DNA of 64,000 nt from Chryseobacterium mulctrae (GTDB lineage Bacteria; Bacteroidota; Bacteroidia; Flavobacteriales; Weeksellaceae). The translations under genes were made by a program, and so were the position numbers. The notes below the pieces were generated by a model. That model was not told the origin of the DNA. It was given only the letters and a program-made list of their open reading frames with translations, and did not search any database. Within the stretch, counting starts at the first letter, position 1. The number at the start of each line of letters is the position of its first letter. Below, in pieces: positions 34,301-53,789 of this stretch. Where the stretch lies: assembly GCF_006175945.1 (NCBI RefSeq), contig NZ_VAJL01000001.1:1798001-1862000 (forward strand), given 5' to 3'.

Positions 34301-34375
34301 GGTCTATTCGTCTAGTGGTCAGGACTCAAGGTTTTCATCCTTGCAACAGGAGTTCGATTCTCCTATAGACTACCA
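34301..34375 (+). tRNA. tRNA-Glu (TTC), CCA encoded
   Basis: Acceptor GGTCTAT pairs with ATAGACT (34365-34371; a G-U first pair), discriminator A34372, then an encoded CCA. The anticodon stem CAAGG/CCTTG (34327-34331 and 34339-34343) holds loop TTTTCAT with anticodon TTC at 34334-34336. The T-arm contains GTTCGATTC. It differs from the two copies at 38111 and 38281, so it is a distinct isoacceptor gene. Confidence 0.95.
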
Positions 34376-46593: not shown

Positions 46594-48540
46594 TTAAAAC
46601 TTCATTCTCTGAATTCTTACTGCATTTAAGATTGCCAATAATGCAACTCCCACATCAGCAAAAACAGCTTCCCACATTGTTGCTAAACCTCCTGCTCCTA
46701 AAACTAAAACAATAGCTTTTACCGCAAATGCTAAAATTATATTTTGCCAAACTATCTTTTTAGTTTGCTTTCCAATGTTGATCGCCATTGGGATTTTGCT
46801 CGGTTTATCATCCTGAATTACGACATCAGCAGTTTCAATTGTTGCATCACTTCCCAATCCGCCCATTGCAATTCCGACATCGCTTAAAGCAACAACGGGA
46901 GCATCATTTACTCCATCACCAACAAAAGCAACGGTTTGGTTTTTAGCTTTCAGTTCTTTGACTTTATTTACTTTATCTTCAGGAAGTAAGTCTCCGAAAG
47001 CATTTTCAATACCCAATTCATTCGCAACAAACTGTACAACAGAAGTTTTATCGCCACTTAACATCGTGGTTTTTACATTCAATGCTTTTAGTTTATTGAT
47101 CGTTAACTGAGCATCTTCTTTGATGGAATCTGCGATGGTAAGATATCCAACAAACTTTTTATCATACGCTATGGCAATTAAAGTATAAACAATATTTTCA
47201 GTTTTCAGATCGTAATTGATGTTGAATTTATCCATCAGCTTAAAGTTTCCAACCAGCAATTCTTTATCTGTAATCGTTGCTTTTAAACCGTGACCTGCAA
47301 TTTCTTCTACATTTTCTAATTGAATAGAATGATCGATCTCGCCCACAAACTGATGAATAGCTGTTGCTACAGGATGCGTACTCTGGCTTTCAAGCGCATT
47401 GACTAGTTTTAAAATTTCATCTTTATTAAATTCATTTCCAAAATTCACTTCCTGAACCTTGAAAACACCTTCAGTCATCGTTCCTGTTTTATCCATCACA
47501 ACGTTTTGAACATTCGCCAAAACATCCAGAAAATTACTTCCTTTAAATAAAATTCCATTTTTACTTCCTGCGCCAATTCCACCAAAATAACCCAATGGAA
47601 TAGAAATCACCAACGCACATGGGCAAGAAATCACTAAGAAAATCAATGCTCGGTACAGCCAACTTTTAAACTCATAATCTTCAACGAAAAAGTAAGGTAA
47701 AAAAGTAATTCCAATCGCCAGAAATACAACAATAGGAGTATAAACTTTAGCAAATTTTCTGATGAATAATTCTGTCGGAGCTTTTTGAGAGGTCGCATTC
47801 TGAACCATTTCTAAAATTTTGCTCAGTTTACTGTCTTTATAAGCGGTCGTCACTTTTACCTGACTGACTGTATTTAAATTGATCATTCCTGCTAAAACCA
47901 TTTCACCTTTCGATTTTGTATCAGGTTTGCTTTCTCCGGTAAGAGCGGAGGTATTGAAAGAGGCTTTCTCAGAAAGTAATTCACCATCCAAACCCAGTTT
48001 TTCACCAGATTTTAATTGAATAATATCTCCAATATTCGCTTTTTCAGCTTTTATTACTTTGGGAGTTCCATTTTCTAAAACGGTCACTTCATCAGGACGC
48101 TGATCGAGAAGAGATCTAATATTGGTTTTAGCTTTGGTAACTGCCATTGCCTGAAAAACTTCACCCACCGAATAAAACAACATCACCGCAACACCTTCAG
48201 GATATTCTCCAATCGCAAAAGCACCGATCGTAGCAATTCCCATCAGGAAAAATTCTGAGAAAACATCACCTTTAACAATACTTTCGTAGGCTTCTTTTAA
48301 AACAGGAATTCCCACAGGAATATAGGCTATCAAATACCAAACAAGACGCACCCAACCGTTAAACCAATTGTTTTCAATGAAATTATCAAACGTAATTCCG
48401 ATCAAAAGCAGACCAAATGATATAATTGCGGGTAAGAAAAGCTGAAGCGTTGATCTGTCTTGAACCTCGTGAGAATGATCATGGTCGTGATCTTCGTGGT
48501 TGTGCTCTTTTTTAGGTTTTGTAGTGCAACATTCTTCCAT
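46594..48540 (-). CDS. Heavy-metal P1B-type ATPase (Zn/Cd/Pb-type)
   Basis: A 648-residue protein from the ATG at 48538-48540. The N-terminus is Cys- and His-rich (MEECCTTKPKKEHNHEDHDH) instead of a classical HMA domain. It contains the membrane-metal motif SCPCALVIS, the phosphorylation site DKTGTMTEG, the HP motif TGHG-like region AGHGLKA and GDGVNDAPVVALSDVGIAMG. It exports divalent metals, most likely zinc or cadmium. A longer ORF start lies inside the fur gene and is rejected. A perfect Fur-family palindrome lies 38 bases upstream. Confidence 0.92.
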   Translation of the reverse strand: MEECCTTKPKKEHNHEDHDHDHSHEVQDRSTLQLFLPAIISFGLLLIGITFDNFIENNWFNGWVRLVWYLIAYIPVGIPVLKEAYESIVKGDVFSEFFLMGIATIGAFAIGEYPEGVAVMLFYSVGEVFQAMAVTKAKTNIRSLLDQRPDEVTVLENGTPKVIKAEKANIGDIIQLKSGEKLGLDGELLSEKASFNTSALTGESKPDTKSKGEMVLAGMINLNTVSQVKVTTAYKDSKLSKILEMVQNATSQKAPTELFIRKFAKVYTPIVVFLAIGITFLPYFFVEDYEFKSWLYRALIFLVISCPCALVISIPLGYFGGIGAGSKNGILFKGSNFLDVLANVQNVVMDKTGTMTEGVFKVQEVNFGNEFNKDEILKLVNALESQSTHPVATAIHQFVGEIDHSIQLENVEEIAGHGLKATITDKELLVGNFKLMDKFNINYDLKTENIVYTLIAIAYDKKFVGYLTIADSIKEDAQLTINKLKALNVKTTMLSGDKTSVVQFVANELGIENAFGDLLPEDKVNKVKELKAKNQTVAFVGDGVNDAPVVALSDVGIAMGGLGSDATIETADVVIQDDKPSKIPMAINIGKQTKKIVWQNIILAFAVKAIVLVLGAGGLATMWEAVFADVGVALLAILNAVRIQRMKF

Positions 48541-48577
48541 AACAAATAATTTTAAACAAATATAGAGTGAACGCGAA

Positions 48578-48592
48578 TGCAATACTATTGCA
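48578..48592. promoter_or_regulatory. Perfect 7-1-7 palindrome, Fur-family operator candidate
   Basis: TGCAATA-C-TATTGCA straddles the stop codon of the Fur-family gene and lies just ahead of the P-type ATPase start. Fur, Zur, PerR and Nur boxes share this 7-1-7 form. The neighbouring regulator is the natural candidate to bind it. Confidence 0.6.
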
Positions 48593-49004
48593 AACTTTCG
48601 AGACAGTTTTCGCAAATACCTTTGGCAAAAAGCCTTATTTCATCAATTCTAAAATTGGTTTTCATGCTTTCGGGGAAAGAAATATCTTCTTTGCAGGTCG
48701 TTTGTTTGCAGATCTTGCAGTAGAAATGCAGATGCCAGTCTTTATGCGTTTTTTCGTTGCAATCATCATGACACAATTTATATTTCGTGGTCGAATTTTC
48801 CTGAATGCTGTGAACAATTCCTTTTTCTTCGAAGGTTTTTAATGTTCTGTAAATTGTGGTTCGATCGGCATTTTCAAAATAATTTTCGATCTCGGACAAA
48901 GACAAAGCTGTTTCTTGTGAACTTAAAAAATCGTAAACCAAGATCCTCATGCTTGTAGGTTTGGTATTTTTGTCGATGAGCTTATTTTCGATTTTTTGTT
49001 TCAT
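48585..49004 (-). CDS. Fur-family metal-responsive repressor
   Basis: A 139-residue protein. The winged helix ends in ADRTTIYRTLKTFEEKGIVHSI, the Fur signature helix. The dimerisation part holds HLHFYCKICKQTTC and a final GICENC, two CxxC pairs that form the structural zinc site, with several His for a sensing site. It lies 44 bases ahead of the heavy-metal ATPase gene, so it is likely a zinc-type regulator (Zur-like) rather than iron Fur. Confidence 0.9.
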   Translation of the reverse strand: MKQKIENKLIDKNTKPTSMRILVYDFLSSQETALSLSEIENYFENADRTTIYRTLKTFEEKGIVHSIQENSTTKYKLCHDDCNEKTHKDWHLHFYCKICKQTTCKEDISFPESMKTNFRIDEIRLFAKGICENCLESLQ

Positions 49005-49074: not shown

Positions 49075-49108
49075 AAAAAAAGAGCCTTTGCATTTCTACA
49101 AAGACTCC
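49075..49108 (-). terminator. Terminator of the SusC-SusD operon
   Basis: GAGCCTTTG (49082-49090) and CAAAGACTC (49099-49107) pair with one G-U. The A-run at 49075-49081 gives a U-tract on the minus strand just past the SusD stop. Confidence 0.75.
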
Positions 49109-49123
49109 AAAATAAAATCAAAA

Positions 49124-50617
49124 CTATAAATTTGGATTGTTCTCAATTTCTTTCTGCGGAATTGAAAACAAATAATATCTGCTATTGGGCGCAAAAGCTG
49201 ACTGATCAGGAAATGCAAAAACAGAATGTCCTCTTCCATTAACCGTTTTCACCGTACCATTTGGCGTTGTAATCTGCACCGGGATTGGTTGTCCACTTGA
49301 GTTTACATAAGCTTTTCTTTCCACTTTACCTTGTGTTCTGATGATATCTGAAAGAGAAAAACCTTCTCCGAACAATTCTTTTCTTCTTTCAATCAAAACT
49401 TCTTTAATGACATCATTTTGTGCAATTGAACCCGTATAAACATTGGCTTTTCTTGCTGTTTTTAGTTGGTTTAAAATTGCAACAGCATTGGCAACATTTC
49501 CGCTTCTTGCTTCAGCTTCAGCTTCAATTAAATACATTTCAGCAGCTCTCATGAAAACGATATCGGCAATTAAATTAGCTTTAAACTTAAATTTAGCATA
49601 TCTCAAAAGCCCTTCTCTTCCCGGTAAACCATCCCAAGAAAATAGAGAAGAACGGATATCATTCGTATCAAACAGATCTTTAAAATAAGGATCGGCCATA
49701 AAACTGTAATAATAACTTCCCGAAGATGAAACATCCAAATAGTGGAATGCATAGCTTTCACCAGACTGTTCCTGAGTTTGTGCATGTCCCCAGATCCATT
49801 CTCCGTTGGTAATATCGTTGAAGCCTTCTTTATATTTCTCGGCATTCATTAGCGGAAATCCTGTCTTGGCAATTTGTGCAGAAGCTACAGCTTTCGTCCA
49901 TTCTCCTGTATTCAGATATACTCTTGCCAAAAGCCCGTTAACTACAGAGCGATCGATTTTATCTTTATTATTTCTAGAATAGTTTTGAAGCAATTGGTTG
50001 GCATCAGTTAAATCACTTTTAATTAAATTATAAATTTCTTCAAGACTCGCTTTTTTCTTTCCTACAGAATTGGTCGTTGCTGGTTCTGTATAAATTGGAG
50101 CCGTTGGTGCATTTTTATCTTTTAAATAACTGAACTGATAAAAACTTGCAAGATTCCAGTAACAAAAAGCACGCAAAGCTTTCGCCTGGCCTTTCACCTG
50201 ATCTTTCTTTTCCTGAGTTCCTTCTGCTGCATCAATTTTAGCGATCACGTTATTCATATTATTGATAACAGAATATAAAGATGTCCAGATATAAAGCGAT
50301 CTACTACCTGTATTATTCACCAAATCGGTAAATGCATAAGCCGATGGAAAACCATATTTATTGGTCAAAACCGCAACATCACTTCCCATTGCATCGCTGG
50401 TTCTTAAAACCGTTGAATATCCAATATTGGCATACGTTGTTCCGTCATCATTAAATTTTGCCCAGGTTCCGTTGATCACCGTTTCAGCACTTTCAGCAGT
50501 CTTGAAAATTTCGGCTTCATCTGCCTGATTTGTCGGGGCAGTTTCAAGGTCATTTTCACAACTTATCAGAGAAACTGCAGCAATTAAAGCAAAAGATATA
50601 TATTTTAATTTTTTCAT
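49124..50617 (-). CDS. SusD/RagB family nutrient-binding lipoprotein
   Basis: A 497-residue protein from the ATG at 50615-50617. The signal has lipobox LISC. TPR-like helices form the core, with GQAKALRAFCYWNLASFYQFSY (about 135-160), and the C-terminal segment MRAAEMYLIEAEAEARSGN and RRKELFGEGF is the family signature. SusD-like proteins cap the SusC pore and bind the substrate outside. The gene lies 19 bases after SusC on the same transcript, so it is under the SAM riboswitch. Confidence 0.93.
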   Translation of the reverse strand: MKKLKYISFALIAAVSLISCENDLETAPTNQADEAEIFKTAESAETVINGTWAKFNDDGTTYANIGYSTVLRTSDAMGSDVAVLTNKYGFPSAYAFTDLVNNTGSRSLYIWTSLYSVINNMNNVIAKIDAAEGTQEKKDQVKGQAKALRAFCYWNLASFYQFSYLKDKNAPTAPIYTEPATTNSVGKKKASLEEIYNLIKSDLTDANQLLQNYSRNNKDKIDRSVVNGLLARVYLNTGEWTKAVASAQIAKTGFPLMNAEKYKEGFNDITNGEWIWGHAQTQEQSGESYAFHYLDVSSSGSYYYSFMADPYFKDLFDTNDIRSSLFSWDGLPGREGLLRYAKFKFKANLIADIVFMRAAEMYLIEAEAEARSGNVANAVAILNQLKTARKANVYTGSIAQNDVIKEVLIERRKELFGEGFSLSDIIRTQGKVERKAYVNSSGQPIPVQITTPNGTVKTVNGRGHSVFAFPDQSAFAPNSRYYLFSIPQKEIENNPNL

Positions 50618-50636
50618 ATGTAAGATTTTAAATATT

Positions 50637-53555
50637 TTAAAGAGTAGCCTGCACACCAAAAGTTACCGTTCTCATTGCAGGATATCTGTAGTACGTTGTT
50701 CCGTCTAAAGTTTGCTCAGGATCCATTCCTTTATGCTTATAGAATGTGAAAAGGTTTTCTGCCTGAACATAAACTCTCAGCTTTTTCAATCCGATTTTTT
50801 CAAAATAATCTGAAGGAAGGGTGTATCCTAAGCTTACATTTTTAATTCTTGCATACGTTCCGGAATATAAGAATCTTGACGAAGCGGAAGTCCAGTTATT
50901 GGTTGTTGTGCTTAAAGCCGGAACATCCGTATTGGTATTTTCGGGAGTCCATCGGTTTAACATTTCAGAGCTCCATGCTCTTCCCGCAGCACTTCCATTA
51001 TGCATCAACATCGTATAATCGGTATCAAGAATTTTACCTCCCAAACTGAAAGTCAGTAATCCTGAAAAATCAAAATCTTTATATCTGATGCTTGTTGTAA
51101 GACCACCCATTACTTTAGGCAAAGAAGAACCCTGCAGAGTTTTCGTAGCTTTTGCATACTCAGAAGTCGTTCCTTCTACTGTATTTCCGTTTGCATCAGT
51201 TGTAATTGTTTTCCAAAGCGGATTTCCGTTAGTCGGATCAACTCCCATCCATTCAGGAATAAAGAAATCATAAATAGAACCTCCAACCTGCAAACGTTTT
51301 GTCCCGCTAACAATTGAACCTTTCGGAAGCTTTGTAATTTCATTTTTTAAAGTACTTAGATTCACATCAACATTCCATTCGAAATCATCTGTTTTAACAG
51401 GTGTTGTAAAGAGAGAAAATTCAAAACCTGTGTTTTTTAATTCTCCAATATTCGCCTGATAACCGCTGAAACCAACTGATGGAGCCAAAGGCATATCAAA
51501 CAAAAGATCTTTACTCTGACGCTGGAAATATTCTACATTACCTTTAATTCTGTTTTTCAGAATGGCAAATTCTAACCCCACATTTAAGTTGAGATTGGTT
51601 TCCCACTTCAGATCCGGAGTCGGAAGTCTGCTTGCAACCGTACCGCCTTCACCAAGATTGTTATAAAATGTGTACAAACTTTGGTACGCATAATACGTGC
51701 TCAATTTGTCATTTCCCTGACCACCATAACTTGCACGAAGCGTCAACTGATCAAAAATATTTAAATCTTTAATGAAATTTTCGCTCGAAGCTTTCCATGA
51801 TCCACCAACTGACCAGAAAGTTCCCCATCTGTTTTCGGGCGAAAATCTTGAAGAGCCATCTGCTCTTACCGATCCGGAAATGAAATATTTATTTTTAAAA
51901 TCATACTCCGCTTTTCCTAAGTAACTTAAAAGTCCCAATTTATCACTGCTTCCGCTAAATCCACCTAACAAAGCTGCCGCATCTGGCTCATAATAATATG
52001 GAAGTGAAAATTGGCTTCTGTTTCCAGAAATAGTTTGAAATTCGTAATGATAAAATTCCTGACCCGCTAAAATATTAAAGTGATGCTGGTTGAATTTTTT
52101 ATCAAAAGTCAAAATATTACTGGTTGTATAAGACAGCGTTCTTGAGTTTGTTTTTGTTACTGAACCACCGATTTCACTTCCCTGCCCTATCAAAGGATTG
52201 GAATAAAAGTGACCGTTGTAATTAACCAAATCAACAGAAAAGCTAGATTTAAACTTTAATTCCGGTAAGAAAGTAAAGTCTAAGAACCCTTTTCCTGAAA
52301 AGTTATCTTCACGGTTTTCATTTTTATCTAAAGGTAATGTCGCTGCAGCATTTTGATTCTGTAAAGCACTTGTAGGACGGTATTTTCCAAAGTCATAGAT
52401 ATAATTTCCATTGGCATCTAATCGGTGACTTCCGTCTGCATTTCTTTCGTAATAAGGATAAAAAGAAGGAATTACTCTTGCTGCATTAATAATATTATCC
52501 GTTCTGGAATCTGAAGAAGGTGGCGCTTCCTGAAGACTGTTCGTATAACTTAAATTAGCCCCAACATTTAACCATTTTTTAACTTCAGAGTTTATTTTAA
52601 GTCTTGTACTGTATTTTGTAAAACCTGATCCAATAGCAATTCCTTTATCATCCAAATATCCTAATGAAAAGAAGTAATTGCTTTTTTCGCTTCCACCACT
52701 GAAATCTAGATCGACCTGGCTTCTTGCTGCCACTCTCTGAAGAATATCTCTCCAGTCATCATTCCATAAAGCAGTAGCTCCAGGCAAAAGCTTCCCATCG
52801 GTTCCTACAGGTTTTGCATAATTTGATCCGTATGGATTTATTCCTAAACCATTGCTTCCGGAAACCAAAGCATCACTCGCCATTTGCGCCGCCTGTTGAG
52901 AAGTAACCTGACTTGATTTGTAGCCATTTCTCAAAGCTTCCCAATACAATTGAAAATACTGATCTGTATTTACCTGTTCGTAATCTTTAACCGCTCTTGT
53001 AGAAAAACCCTGACTGATATTAAAATTCACTTTAGCCTCACCTTTTTTTCCGGATTTTGTTGTAATAATAATTACTCCGTTGGCTGCTCTTGAACCATAA
53101 AGTGAGCTTGCTGTAGCATCTTTCAAAACACTGATCGATTCAATATCATTCGGACTTATCGAGTTGATATTCCCGTCAAAAGGAATTCCGTCTACCACAA
53201 ACAAAGGATTACTTGAAGCACTTACCGAGCCAATTCCACGAATACGAATAGATGCCGTTGCACCCGGTTGTCCAGAAGCACTTACCGCCTGAAGACCCGG
53301 AACCTGTCCTTCCAAAGCTTTGGTAATATTGGTAACCGGTCTGTTATTTATTTTTTCGCTCGAAATCGTTGCCACAGAGCCTGTGTAACTTGTTTTTTTC
53401 GCTTTTCCGTAAGCGACAACTACTACTTCATCTATATCCTGTTCGCGAAGTGTATCTTTTTTTGCTTCCTGACCATTAATGTTGATTATTCCTAAGAAAA
53501 ACACTGCAATAGGTGGAATCCAAGCTTTAGAATTAATTAAATTTTTGTTAATCAT
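50637..53555 (-). CDS. SusC/RagA family TonB-linked outer-membrane transporter
   Basis: A 972-residue protein with signal peptide (to about 29), a TonB-box-like DIDEVVVVAYG (about 41-51) and a plug domain with VTNITKALEGQVPGLQ and RIRGIGSVSASSNPLFVVDG and the VLKDATASSLYGSRAANGVI signature, seen as DATASSLYGSRAANGVI. A 22-strand barrel follows. The usual N-terminal carboxypeptidase-regulatory-like domain is absent. It is the first gene of an operon with SusD and is preceded by a SAM-I riboswitch, so its expression should fall when SAM is plentiful. The substrate is unknown. Confidence 0.93.
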   Translation of the reverse strand: MINKNLINSKAWIPPIAVFFLGIININGQEAKKDTLREQDIDEVVVVAYGKAKKTSYTGSVATISSEKINNRPVTNITKALEGQVPGLQAVSASGQPGATASIRIRGIGSVSASSNPLFVVDGIPFDGNINSISPNDIESISVLKDATASSLYGSRAANGVIIITTKSGKKGEAKVNFNISQGFSTRAVKDYEQVNTDQYFQLYWEALRNGYKSSQVTSQQAAQMASDALVSGSNGLGINPYGSNYAKPVGTDGKLLPGATALWNDDWRDILQRVAARSQVDLDFSGGSEKSNYFFSLGYLDDKGIAIGSGFTKYSTRLKINSEVKKWLNVGANLSYTNSLQEAPPSSDSRTDNIINAARVIPSFYPYYERNADGSHRLDANGNYIYDFGKYRPTSALQNQNAAATLPLDKNENREDNFSGKGFLDFTFLPELKFKSSFSVDLVNYNGHFYSNPLIGQGSEIGGSVTKTNSRTLSYTTSNILTFDKKFNQHHFNILAGQEFYHYEFQTISGNRSQFSLPYYYEPDAAALLGGFSGSSDKLGLLSYLGKAEYDFKNKYFISGSVRADGSSRFSPENRWGTFWSVGGSWKASSENFIKDLNIFDQLTLRASYGGQGNDKLSTYYAYQSLYTFYNNLGEGGTVASRLPTPDLKWETNLNLNVGLEFAILKNRIKGNVEYFQRQSKDLLFDMPLAPSVGFSGYQANIGELKNTGFEFSLFTTPVKTDDFEWNVDVNLSTLKNEITKLPKGSIVSGTKRLQVGGSIYDFFIPEWMGVDPTNGNPLWKTITTDANGNTVEGTTSEYAKATKTLQGSSLPKVMGGLTTSIRYKDFDFSGLLTFSLGGKILDTDYTMLMHNGSAAGRAWSSEMLNRWTPENTNTDVPALSTTTNNWTSASSRFLYSGTYARIKNVSLGYTLPSDYFEKIGLKKLRVYVQAENLFTFYKHKGMDPEQTLDGTTYYRYPAMRTVTFGVQATL

Positions 53556-53574
53556 AACTCATTTCATTTATCAA

Positions 53575-53614
53575 ATTTTAAAAATTAACCCTTTGCAGAA
53601 AAGACAGCAAAGGG
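53575..53614 (-). terminator. Riboswitch-controlled intrinsic terminator
   Basis: On the minus strand CCCTTTGC and GCAAAGGG (plus 53607-53614 and 53589-53596) form an 8-bp stem, followed by TTAATTTTT. The P1 3' strand AGCAA (plus 53638-53642) can instead pair with UUGCU (plus 53606-53610), together with AUCG/CGAU, as an antiterminator. Confidence 0.82.
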
Positions 53615-53639
53615 CATCGATAAATACGATTAACCAATT

Positions 53640-53734
53640 GCTTATTTTTCCTTTAAAGGCTGAATGTAACACCTTGCAAAGAGCAGGTTGCTAAGACTTC
53701 ATAGGGTCAGTTCCCTCCATCTTTCTTTATAAGC
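53640..53734 (-). ncRNA. SAM-I (S-box) riboswitch aptamer
   Basis: On the minus strand the RNA reads CTTATAAAGAAAGATGGAGG, then GAACTGACCCTATGAAGTC, TTAGCAACC and further on GGTGTTACATTCAGC. These match the S-box consensus blocks (AGAG-GGUGGAGGG-ACUGGCCC-AUGAA-GCAACC-GGUGCUAAAUCC). P1 forms between GCTTAT (plus 53729-53734) and ATAAGC (plus 53640-53645). S-box RNAs bind SAM and switch expression off when SAM is high. Confidence 0.93.
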
Positions 53735-53751
53735 CGATCGAAATATGTTTG

Positions 53752-53782
53752 CAAATCTAAAAACAATTAGTCTACAAAACAA
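53752..53782 (-). promoter_or_regulatory. Promoter of the riboswitch-SusC-SusD operon
   Basis: On the minus strand TTG (53780-53782), 20 nt and TAGATTTG (53752-53759). The predicted start near 53746 lies 12 bases ahead of the riboswitch P1 helix. Confidence 0.75.
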
Positions 53783-53789
53783 GTAGACT
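53769..53789. promoter_or_regulatory. Inverted repeat around the -33 box
   Basis: AGTCTAC (53769-53775) and GTAGACT (53783-53789) are perfect 7-base inverted repeats with a 7-base spacer that contains the -33 TTG. The position suits an operator for a second, DNA-level regulator. Confidence 0.55.

Follow-up and report, generated by a model that had tools for sequence, protein, structure and literature searches.

What does a SusC/SusD pair import when the RNA leader in front of it appears to sense S-adenosylmethionine (SAM)? Bacteroidota encode many such pairs, for which glycan import is the usual guess, and a riboswitch of known ligand provides a clue to the substrate from DNA alone. The question is raised by a 64,000-nt stretch of Chryseobacterium mulctrae DNA (hereafter the window; contig NZ_VAJL01000001.1, positions 1,798,001 to 1,862,000) that sits within a 4.87-Mb genome and in which, on the minus strand, a SAM-I (S-box) leader precedes the genes susC and susD. 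An initial annotation, made from the letters of the window, had proposed that this riboswitch controls the uptake pair. We consider it likely that susCD forms a methionine-source importer under double sulfur control, with the riboswitch as one layer and a promoter palindrome as the other.

The SAM-I aptamer and its expression platform

A search of the 64-kb window with cmscan placed the aptamer, with P1 to P4, at 53639-53735 on the minus strand (RF00162; 66.5 bits, gathering cut-off 44.4, E = 2.8e-13), within one base at either end of the 53640-53734 element that the initial annotation had drawn. The match is full length (model positions 1-108, untruncated) and is the sole SAM-I match in the window. 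The whole genome contains two SAM riboswitches, the other preceding a metX-like gene ~107 kb away whose best models are MetX, with scores under their cut-offs. The gene susC (50637-53555, minus strand) starts 83 nt past the aptamer and encodes a SusC/RagA family TonB-linked outer-membrane protein of 972 aa, which reached 795 bits against TIGR04056 (cut-off 368) in a profile search. It is followed by susD (49124-50617, minus strand), coding for a 497-aa SusD-family protein with a lipoprotein-like start that scored above the cut-offs of PF14322 and PF07980. The SusC/SusD pair expected behind the riboswitch is therefore present, in the RagAB-like order of a SusC/RagA TonB-linked protein and then a SusD lipoprotein. 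An intrinsic terminator with a 12-pair stem and a TTTTTT run lies 3' of susD (49081-49108, minus strand), so that susC and susD form a unit of their own.

To measure conservation we aligned 102 distinct leaders with MAFFT, drawn from 141 found (several genomes being present twice), and scored them with our own script on a structure derived from the window sequence, a choice that favours the window structure. P1, formed by a 5' strand at 53729-53734 and a 3' strand at 53640-53645, was paired in 612/612 alignment cells, and the pseudoknot between the CUGA of the P2 loop (53707-53710) and the UCAG of J3/4 (53660-53663) in 408/408. The bases that we take to contact SAM are, in T. tengcongensis numbering, A6, U7, G11, C44, A45, C47, U57, G58, A87 and U88. 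All ten were invariant in 102/102 leaders. Some of their identities are given in PMC3656099.

The leaders do depart from the usual aptamer at the top P1 pair, C8-G86, which is A-A or A-G in all of them, with A at position 8 in 102/102, and at position 43, which is A in 101/102. These changes could mark a SAM-I look-alike that, like the spermidine class, has switched ligand, in which case susCD would not be SAM-controlled. SAM-I variants with another ligand do exist, and the spermidine class has an altered J1/2 and P3 internal loop, as described in PMC10853860. Against this stand the invariant contact bases, the position-43 change that keeps its pairing (A-U or G-U), the presence of SusCD rather than polyamine genes downstream, and the methionine and sulfur genes that share the promoter palindrome described below; we judge a changed ligand highly improbable. 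In the window itself the P3 pair 53691-53669 is G-U, and it is A-U in 101/102 distinct leaders.

Downstream of the aptamer, the initial annotation had placed an intrinsic terminator at 53575-53614 and an alternative antiterminator pairing, and both were recovered. The terminator stem spans 53589-53614 (minus strand) and is followed by an interrupted U-rich tail to ~53575. The antiterminator hairpin (53606-53642, minus strand) joins the 3' strand of P1, whose AGC opens it, to the 5' strand of the terminator, and hence excludes both P1 and the terminator. Its pairs were kept in 1119/1222 cells (91.6%) and those of the terminator in 777/816 (95.2%), compared with 29-55% and 30-61%, respectively, in slid controls with the partners shifted by 1-3 columns. 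In predicted folds of the growing transcript, P1 was present at 97-125 nt, the hairpin 53642-53606 was preferred at 131-170 nt, and P1 plus terminator became the minimum once further downstream sequence had extended the transcript to 176 nt. At 165 nt, computed without SAM or pseudoknot, the two states differed little (-39.3 kcal/mol for the antiterminator and -38.4 kcal/mol for P1 plus terminator). As in SAM-I expression platforms, an alternative pairing excludes P1 in these predicted structures.

Some properties of the leader count against a working switch. Pairs changed on both sides numbered 4 in the antiterminator (2-5 in the slid controls) and 4 in the terminator (2-3 in the controls); since the controls are nearly as high, we place the weight on conserved pairing and not on double changes. 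The leader terminator was not listed by a simple terminator scan, because its loop has 10 bases and the scan accepts no more than 8, and its U-tract is broken by an A. In addition, the susC aptamer scores below the metX one (66.5 vs 80.5 bits) and carries the unusual top P1 pair. On balance, the aptamer, its contact bases and an antiterminator and terminator that exclude each other, all kept across the genus and Elizabethkingia, indicate that the leader is almost certainly a SAM off-switch, in line with the shut-off at high SAM that had been suggested for it.

A palindrome over the susC promoter and its partners

A Bacteroidota-type promoter precedes the leader at 53782-53752 (minus strand), with a TTG -33 element (53780-53782) and, 20 nt from it, the -7 element TAGATTTG (53752-53759). 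The TTG and -7 combination is what we take to be the Bacteroidota promoter consensus, and TTG-N17..24-TAnnTTTG was found in 103/104 distinct leaders, which supports the consensus promoter of the initial annotation; a sigma-70 scan listed nothing at the susC promoter. Lying over the -33 box is a feature that is new and that the earlier reading had missed, the palindrome AGTCTAC-TTGTTTT-GTAGACT (53769-53789, minus strand), a probable operator. The form AGTCTA-N9-TAGACT is exact in 97/104 distinct susC leaders; three of the remaining seven have one base changed and four, from three named Elizabethkingia loci and L218, retain chiefly the left arm. A variant, AGTCTA-N9-TAGATT, occurs in 9/9 leaders of the TonB-receptor/permease loci introduced below, and no such palindrome was present in the metX leaders (0/31).

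The palindrome has 1 match in the window and three exact copies in the whole genome, the susC one included. A second, at C1:637910, is upstream of metN-metI-metQ, a methionine ABC importer whose MetI and MetQ scored above their model cut-offs and whose open piece of MetN scored below. Between this copy and metN lies a 34-codon ORF, MEMKSKFTYNCMSKININYMMMYCCTPLCGNFSG (L430:1978-2082, plus strand; C1 near 637,980), and, past it, a strong hairpin with a run of T; by its sequence this arrangement resembles an attenuator of metNIQ that works through a Met/Cys leader peptide. The third, at C1:294808, is located 16 bases 5' of the start codon of a 211-aa 1-Cys peroxiredoxin that is 68-69% identical to those encoded immediately after SAM riboswitches in family f41. 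A copy with 2 mismatches (C1:720051) lies between an Rrf2-type gene and cysH-cysD-cysN. The product of that gene belongs to the Rrf2 superfamily (107 bits, cut-off 73), fails the CymR (60.6 vs 195 bits) and IscR (70.9 vs 208) models, and is 49-51% identical to Rrf2 proteins whose genes follow metY-like ones in five SAM-riboswitch operons of family f2. The palindrome and the SAM riboswitch, as independent types of regulatory site, therefore point to gene sets that overlap. We slightly favour this Rrf2 protein as the regulator that would bind the palindrome.

Some points weaken the palindrome argument. At a tolerance of two mismatches, the genome has fewer copies of the palindrome than of its reversed control (95 vs 436), and a longer form gave 6 and 8 matches against 15 and 26 in the reversed control. 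Also, the expected metN ATG stops after 25 codons and the remaining MetN is in another frame (L430:2159-3186, plus strand), which is either a frame break in metN or a sequencing error. Because the mismatched form is rarer than its control, our argument rests on the positions of the exact copies; these make the palindrome a probable second control of susC, acting at initiation.

Distribution of the leader and of SAM-led SusCD pairs

A SAM riboswitch was detected in 98/98 genomes of the genus, although the search filters miss some weak matches, and the SusD in 71/98. Each of the 71 SusD-positive genomes has two or three SAM riboswitches; the 27 lacking SusD divide into 19 with one and 8 with two. 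We examined 62 of the 71 (the window, L063-L122 and L221) and found the leader in all 62: a regular expression for the aptamer core with up to 2 mismatches matched 59/60 of L063-L122, the sixtieth, L119, has a core with three mismatches and scores 66.6 bits, and the window and L221 carry the leader too. Counting duplicates, the leader was present in 141/142 SusD sources scanned, the sole miss being a distant Dysgonomonas relative. At the gathering cut-off no SAM riboswitch was found at two distant SusD relatives, L201 (Dysgonomonas, 48% identity) and L217 (42-43%); in the latter the order is thioredoxin-like gene, M28 peptidase, SusC and SusD. Of 120 genomes drawn across the family, 10 have the SusD, in 2/33 genera; in the second of these genera the loci that bear a name are from Elizabethkingia, where the riboswitch is found as well (64.1 bits in L191; 62.1 bits in L218, which bears the same genus handle). 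Across the class the SusD was found in at least 2/395 genomes, the window genome included, with up to 3 candidates scored per genome. The SusD is disrupted in some genomes, with two internal TGA codons in G063 and two pieces in G074, and G038 has an additional partial copy.

This distribution bears on whether the leader could be a relic copied from metX, standing before a pair whose import is unrelated to sulfur. A possible donor exists, given the metX riboswitch ~107 kb off in the same genome. The pseudoknot letters are nevertheless unlike those of the metX-type copies and still pair: the 13 metX-type aptamers that we aligned have UAGA/UCUA in 11 and CAGA/UCUA in 2, so that 11/13 pair fully and 2/13 have one mismatched end. 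The conserved platform, the presence of the leader throughout the examined genus genomes and the SAM riboswitches on other SusCD pairs in other families also speak against a relic, which we find scarcely plausible.

Seventeen further SAM loci of the genus were fetched and read. Eight lead a metX operon, with later genes (L207) for a homoserine dehydrogenase, a Cys/Met-metabolism enzyme and a homocysteine methyltransferase. The other nine (L202, L203, L204, L205, L206, L208, L210, L213 and L215) lead two genes, one for a TonB receptor (808-848 aa) and one for an amino-acid permease (431-434 aa), a third locus in sister genomes; the window genome has no good match to this permease (best 26% identity). 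In these nine loci a near-identical palindrome lies over a TACTTTTG or TACCTTTG -7-like element.

The surroundings of the pair are only partly constant. The nearest named SusD relatives are those of Chryseobacterium sp. BGARF1 (98% identity) and C. balustinum (95%). The upstream order FabD, GHMP, Pck, AroQ is kept in 73/80 loci, some of the others being cut short. Just downstream of susD the window has a Fur-family gene (48585-49004, minus strand) and, near it on the 3' side, a heavy-metal (Zn/Cd-type) P-type ATPase (46594-48615, minus strand); we reject co-transcription with these on account of the terminator after susD. A downstream Fur-type gene is present in 38/80 related loci, and the next ORF is on the opposite strand in 56/77, a count to which we give little weight, as it comes from a crude ORF call that may pick spurious antisense ORFs. 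Elsewhere in the window there are three tRNA-Glu(ttc) genes, at 34301, 38111 and 38281 (plus strand); the last two are 170 bases apart and identical across the matched stretch.

Beyond the genus, a search of 395 genomes of the class at E 0.001 detected a SAM riboswitch in 286. We selected 20 of them, mostly for having several SAM riboswitches and thus a biased sample, and examined 59 of their 65 loci. SusC is the first gene and SusD the second in 5/59 (L261, L263 and L287 in family f41; L342 and L352 in f50, ignoring a 95-aa ORF ahead of SusC in L352), and in 2/59 the pair follows one gene, thioredoxin-like in L256 and cysteine-desulfurase-like in L257. TIGR04056 was passed by 6/6 SusCs checked among these seven, and four of the seven SusDs were checked by Pfam. 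Of the other 52 loci, 33 lead metY/metX/thrA-like or metH-like genes by blastp labels; the remaining 19, several assigned by eye, lead peroxiredoxin, desulfurase, metE-/metF-like, permease, monooxygenase, thioredoxin-like and sulfate-assimilation genes. At 21 loci outside those 20 genomes no SusCD was found by blastp against the window pair.

By best-match tests, these pairs are not orthologs of the window pair. Identity to the window SusC is 31-32% in f50 and 24-26% in f41. In the f50 genome (G578) ten other SusCs match the window SusC better than the SAM-led one does, the SAM-led SusCs of f41 (G552, G440) are absent from the matches at E 1e-30, and in the reverse test the f50 protein is matched at E 1e-100 by two other SusCs of the window genome and not by the window SusC. 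Behind the f50 pair comes a gene for an M14 carboxypeptidase. In f41, a 1-Cys peroxiredoxin stands directly behind a SAM riboswitch in L254, L258, L264 and L326, and a class-V aminotransferase (NifS-like cysteine desulfurase) in L255, L257, L259 and L324. The gene cysH is found behind SAM riboswitches in L277 and L347. Other f50 SAM riboswitches lead amino-acid permeases and an ATP-grasp protein together with an SfnG/SsuD-like monooxygenase (L339, L345, L346 and L350, the labels of L345 and L350 being assigned by blastp or eye). The f41 and f50 links are weaker than that in the window, because the aptamer lies roughly 320-570 nt upstream of SusC and simple scans found no clear switch platform in L342, L352 and L287. 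In all, at least three SusCD types (Chryseobacterium/Elizabethkingia, f41 and f50) are SAM-led. We give about even odds to a repeated conversion of Bacteroidota SusCD pairs to methionine-peptide or sulfur scavengers, with a two-layer switch in Chryseobacterium (Rrf2-type operator and SAM-I) that would join outer-membrane SusCD and inner-membrane MetNIQ in a single route of uptake.

The probable cargo and comparison with known systems

The initial annotation had suggested that the pair imports methionine, a methionine-containing peptide or another sulfur source. That suggestion gains from the palindrome common to susC, metNIQ and the peroxiredoxin, from its weaker copy before cysH, and from the SAM-led SusCD and TonB-receptor loci elsewhere that come with a peptidase or a permease. 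Import of a sulfur source by susCD is, as judged from these genomic associations, very probable. Among sulfur sources we favour a methionine source, and peptides in particular, on account of the metNIQ palindrome, the peptidases in relatives and the best solved relative of SusC, RagA (E = 1.2e-112); peptides as the actual cargo would be right about half the time.

Part of the evidence pulls the other way. RagA is barely ahead of another SusC homolog, presumably a levan importer, and no peptidase adjoins the pair within the window. Of the SusD relatives with solved structures, the nearest two bear the label carbohydrate-binding, and a glycosidase-like ORF, seen by eye, follows the f41 pair of L287 at ~1.3 kb. 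The same SAM off-switch might then serve a sulfonate, a sulfate ester, a sulfated glycan or a glucosinolate-like compound, with SAM reporting general sulfur supply, as the cysH genes of L277 and L347 and the f50 monooxygenase would suggest; the latter best fits the model of the dimethylsulfone monooxygenase SfnG, at 246 bits and so under its cut-off of 383. The enzymes at related or convergent loci that were searched by family are peptidases (M14, M28), the sister locus carries an amino-acid permease and metNIQ shares the palindrome, all of which make such a cargo unlikely in our estimation. Close SusD structures exist and leave the cargo unsettled.

Free methionine, or a small derivative such as S-methylmethionine or methionine sulfoxide, might be imported instead of peptides. 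MetQ binds free methionine, its operon shares the palindrome, and the sister locus couples a TonB receptor to an amino-acid permease. Small amino acids cross porins, however, oligomers are what SusCD pairs are known to take up, and peptidases stand beside the relatives, so that we regard this option as quite unlikely.

In the double-control model that we prefer, susCD would carry a methionine source, most likely methionine-containing peptides, through the outer membrane. A sulfur regulator, probably the cysHDN-adjacent Rrf2 protein of the CymR/IscR superfamily, would bind the palindrome over the -33 box, and initiation would track cysteine or sulfide status jointly with metNIQ, cysHDN and the peroxiredoxin. 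The second layer, well supported by sequence, would be the leader acting as a SAM-I transcriptional off-switch. At low SAM, the antiterminator would form, joining the P1 3' strand to the terminator 5' strand, and susCD would be transcribed; at high SAM, P1 would close, the terminator would form and transcription would stop ahead of susC. SusD would then capture the substrate and SusC import it via TonB, and the released methionine would likely cross the inner membrane by MetQ-MetNI, the palindrome partner. If this is true, the locus defines a class of sulfur-responsive SusCD pairs, outer-membrane uptake of methionine sources is regulated in Bacteroidota, and a candidate regulator and operator can be named for their sulfur control.

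The best matches of our open-access literature searches include none that describes SusCD under a SAM riboswitch, most subscription papers being outside the search. The gene names BT2032/BT2033 may belong to structure 3snx. The terms 'outer membrane' and 'TonB' are absent from the main text of PMC3766115, and in the accessible part of PMC7160235 SAM riboswitches are merely named among many RNAs.

Finally, we compared the locus with known systems. The susC leader resembles SAM-I riboswitches (RF00162) in its four-way junction, pseudoknot, contact bases and competition of P1, antiterminator and terminator, and differs from the usual ones in preceding a SusC/SusD outer-membrane pair, in its A-A or A-G top P1 pair and in the palindromic operator-like site in its promoter. 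Its likeness to the CymR/Rrf2 regulon consists of an Rrf2 gene beside cysHDN and a palindrome near sulfur genes, although the regulator is under the CymR and IscR cut-offs and its binding to the palindrome is putative. The RagAB system of Porphyromonas gingivalis, 'implicated in protein uptake' (PMC11817032, in the part available), is likewise a SusC/SusD-type pair and includes the best solved relative of SusC; in that part of the source no riboswitch is evident for RagAB, and the match of SusC to RagA is only slightly above that to another SusC. The closest working analogue that we found is BtuB/BtuG of Bacteroides, in which, according to PMC6143338, a B12 riboswitch represses a TonB-dependent importer and its surface lipoprotein at plenty. 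Both systems place a riboswitch on a TonB-dependent importer and a lipoprotein, but here the ligand would be SAM, the partner is a SusD instead of BtuG, and the cargo is a probable methionine source.

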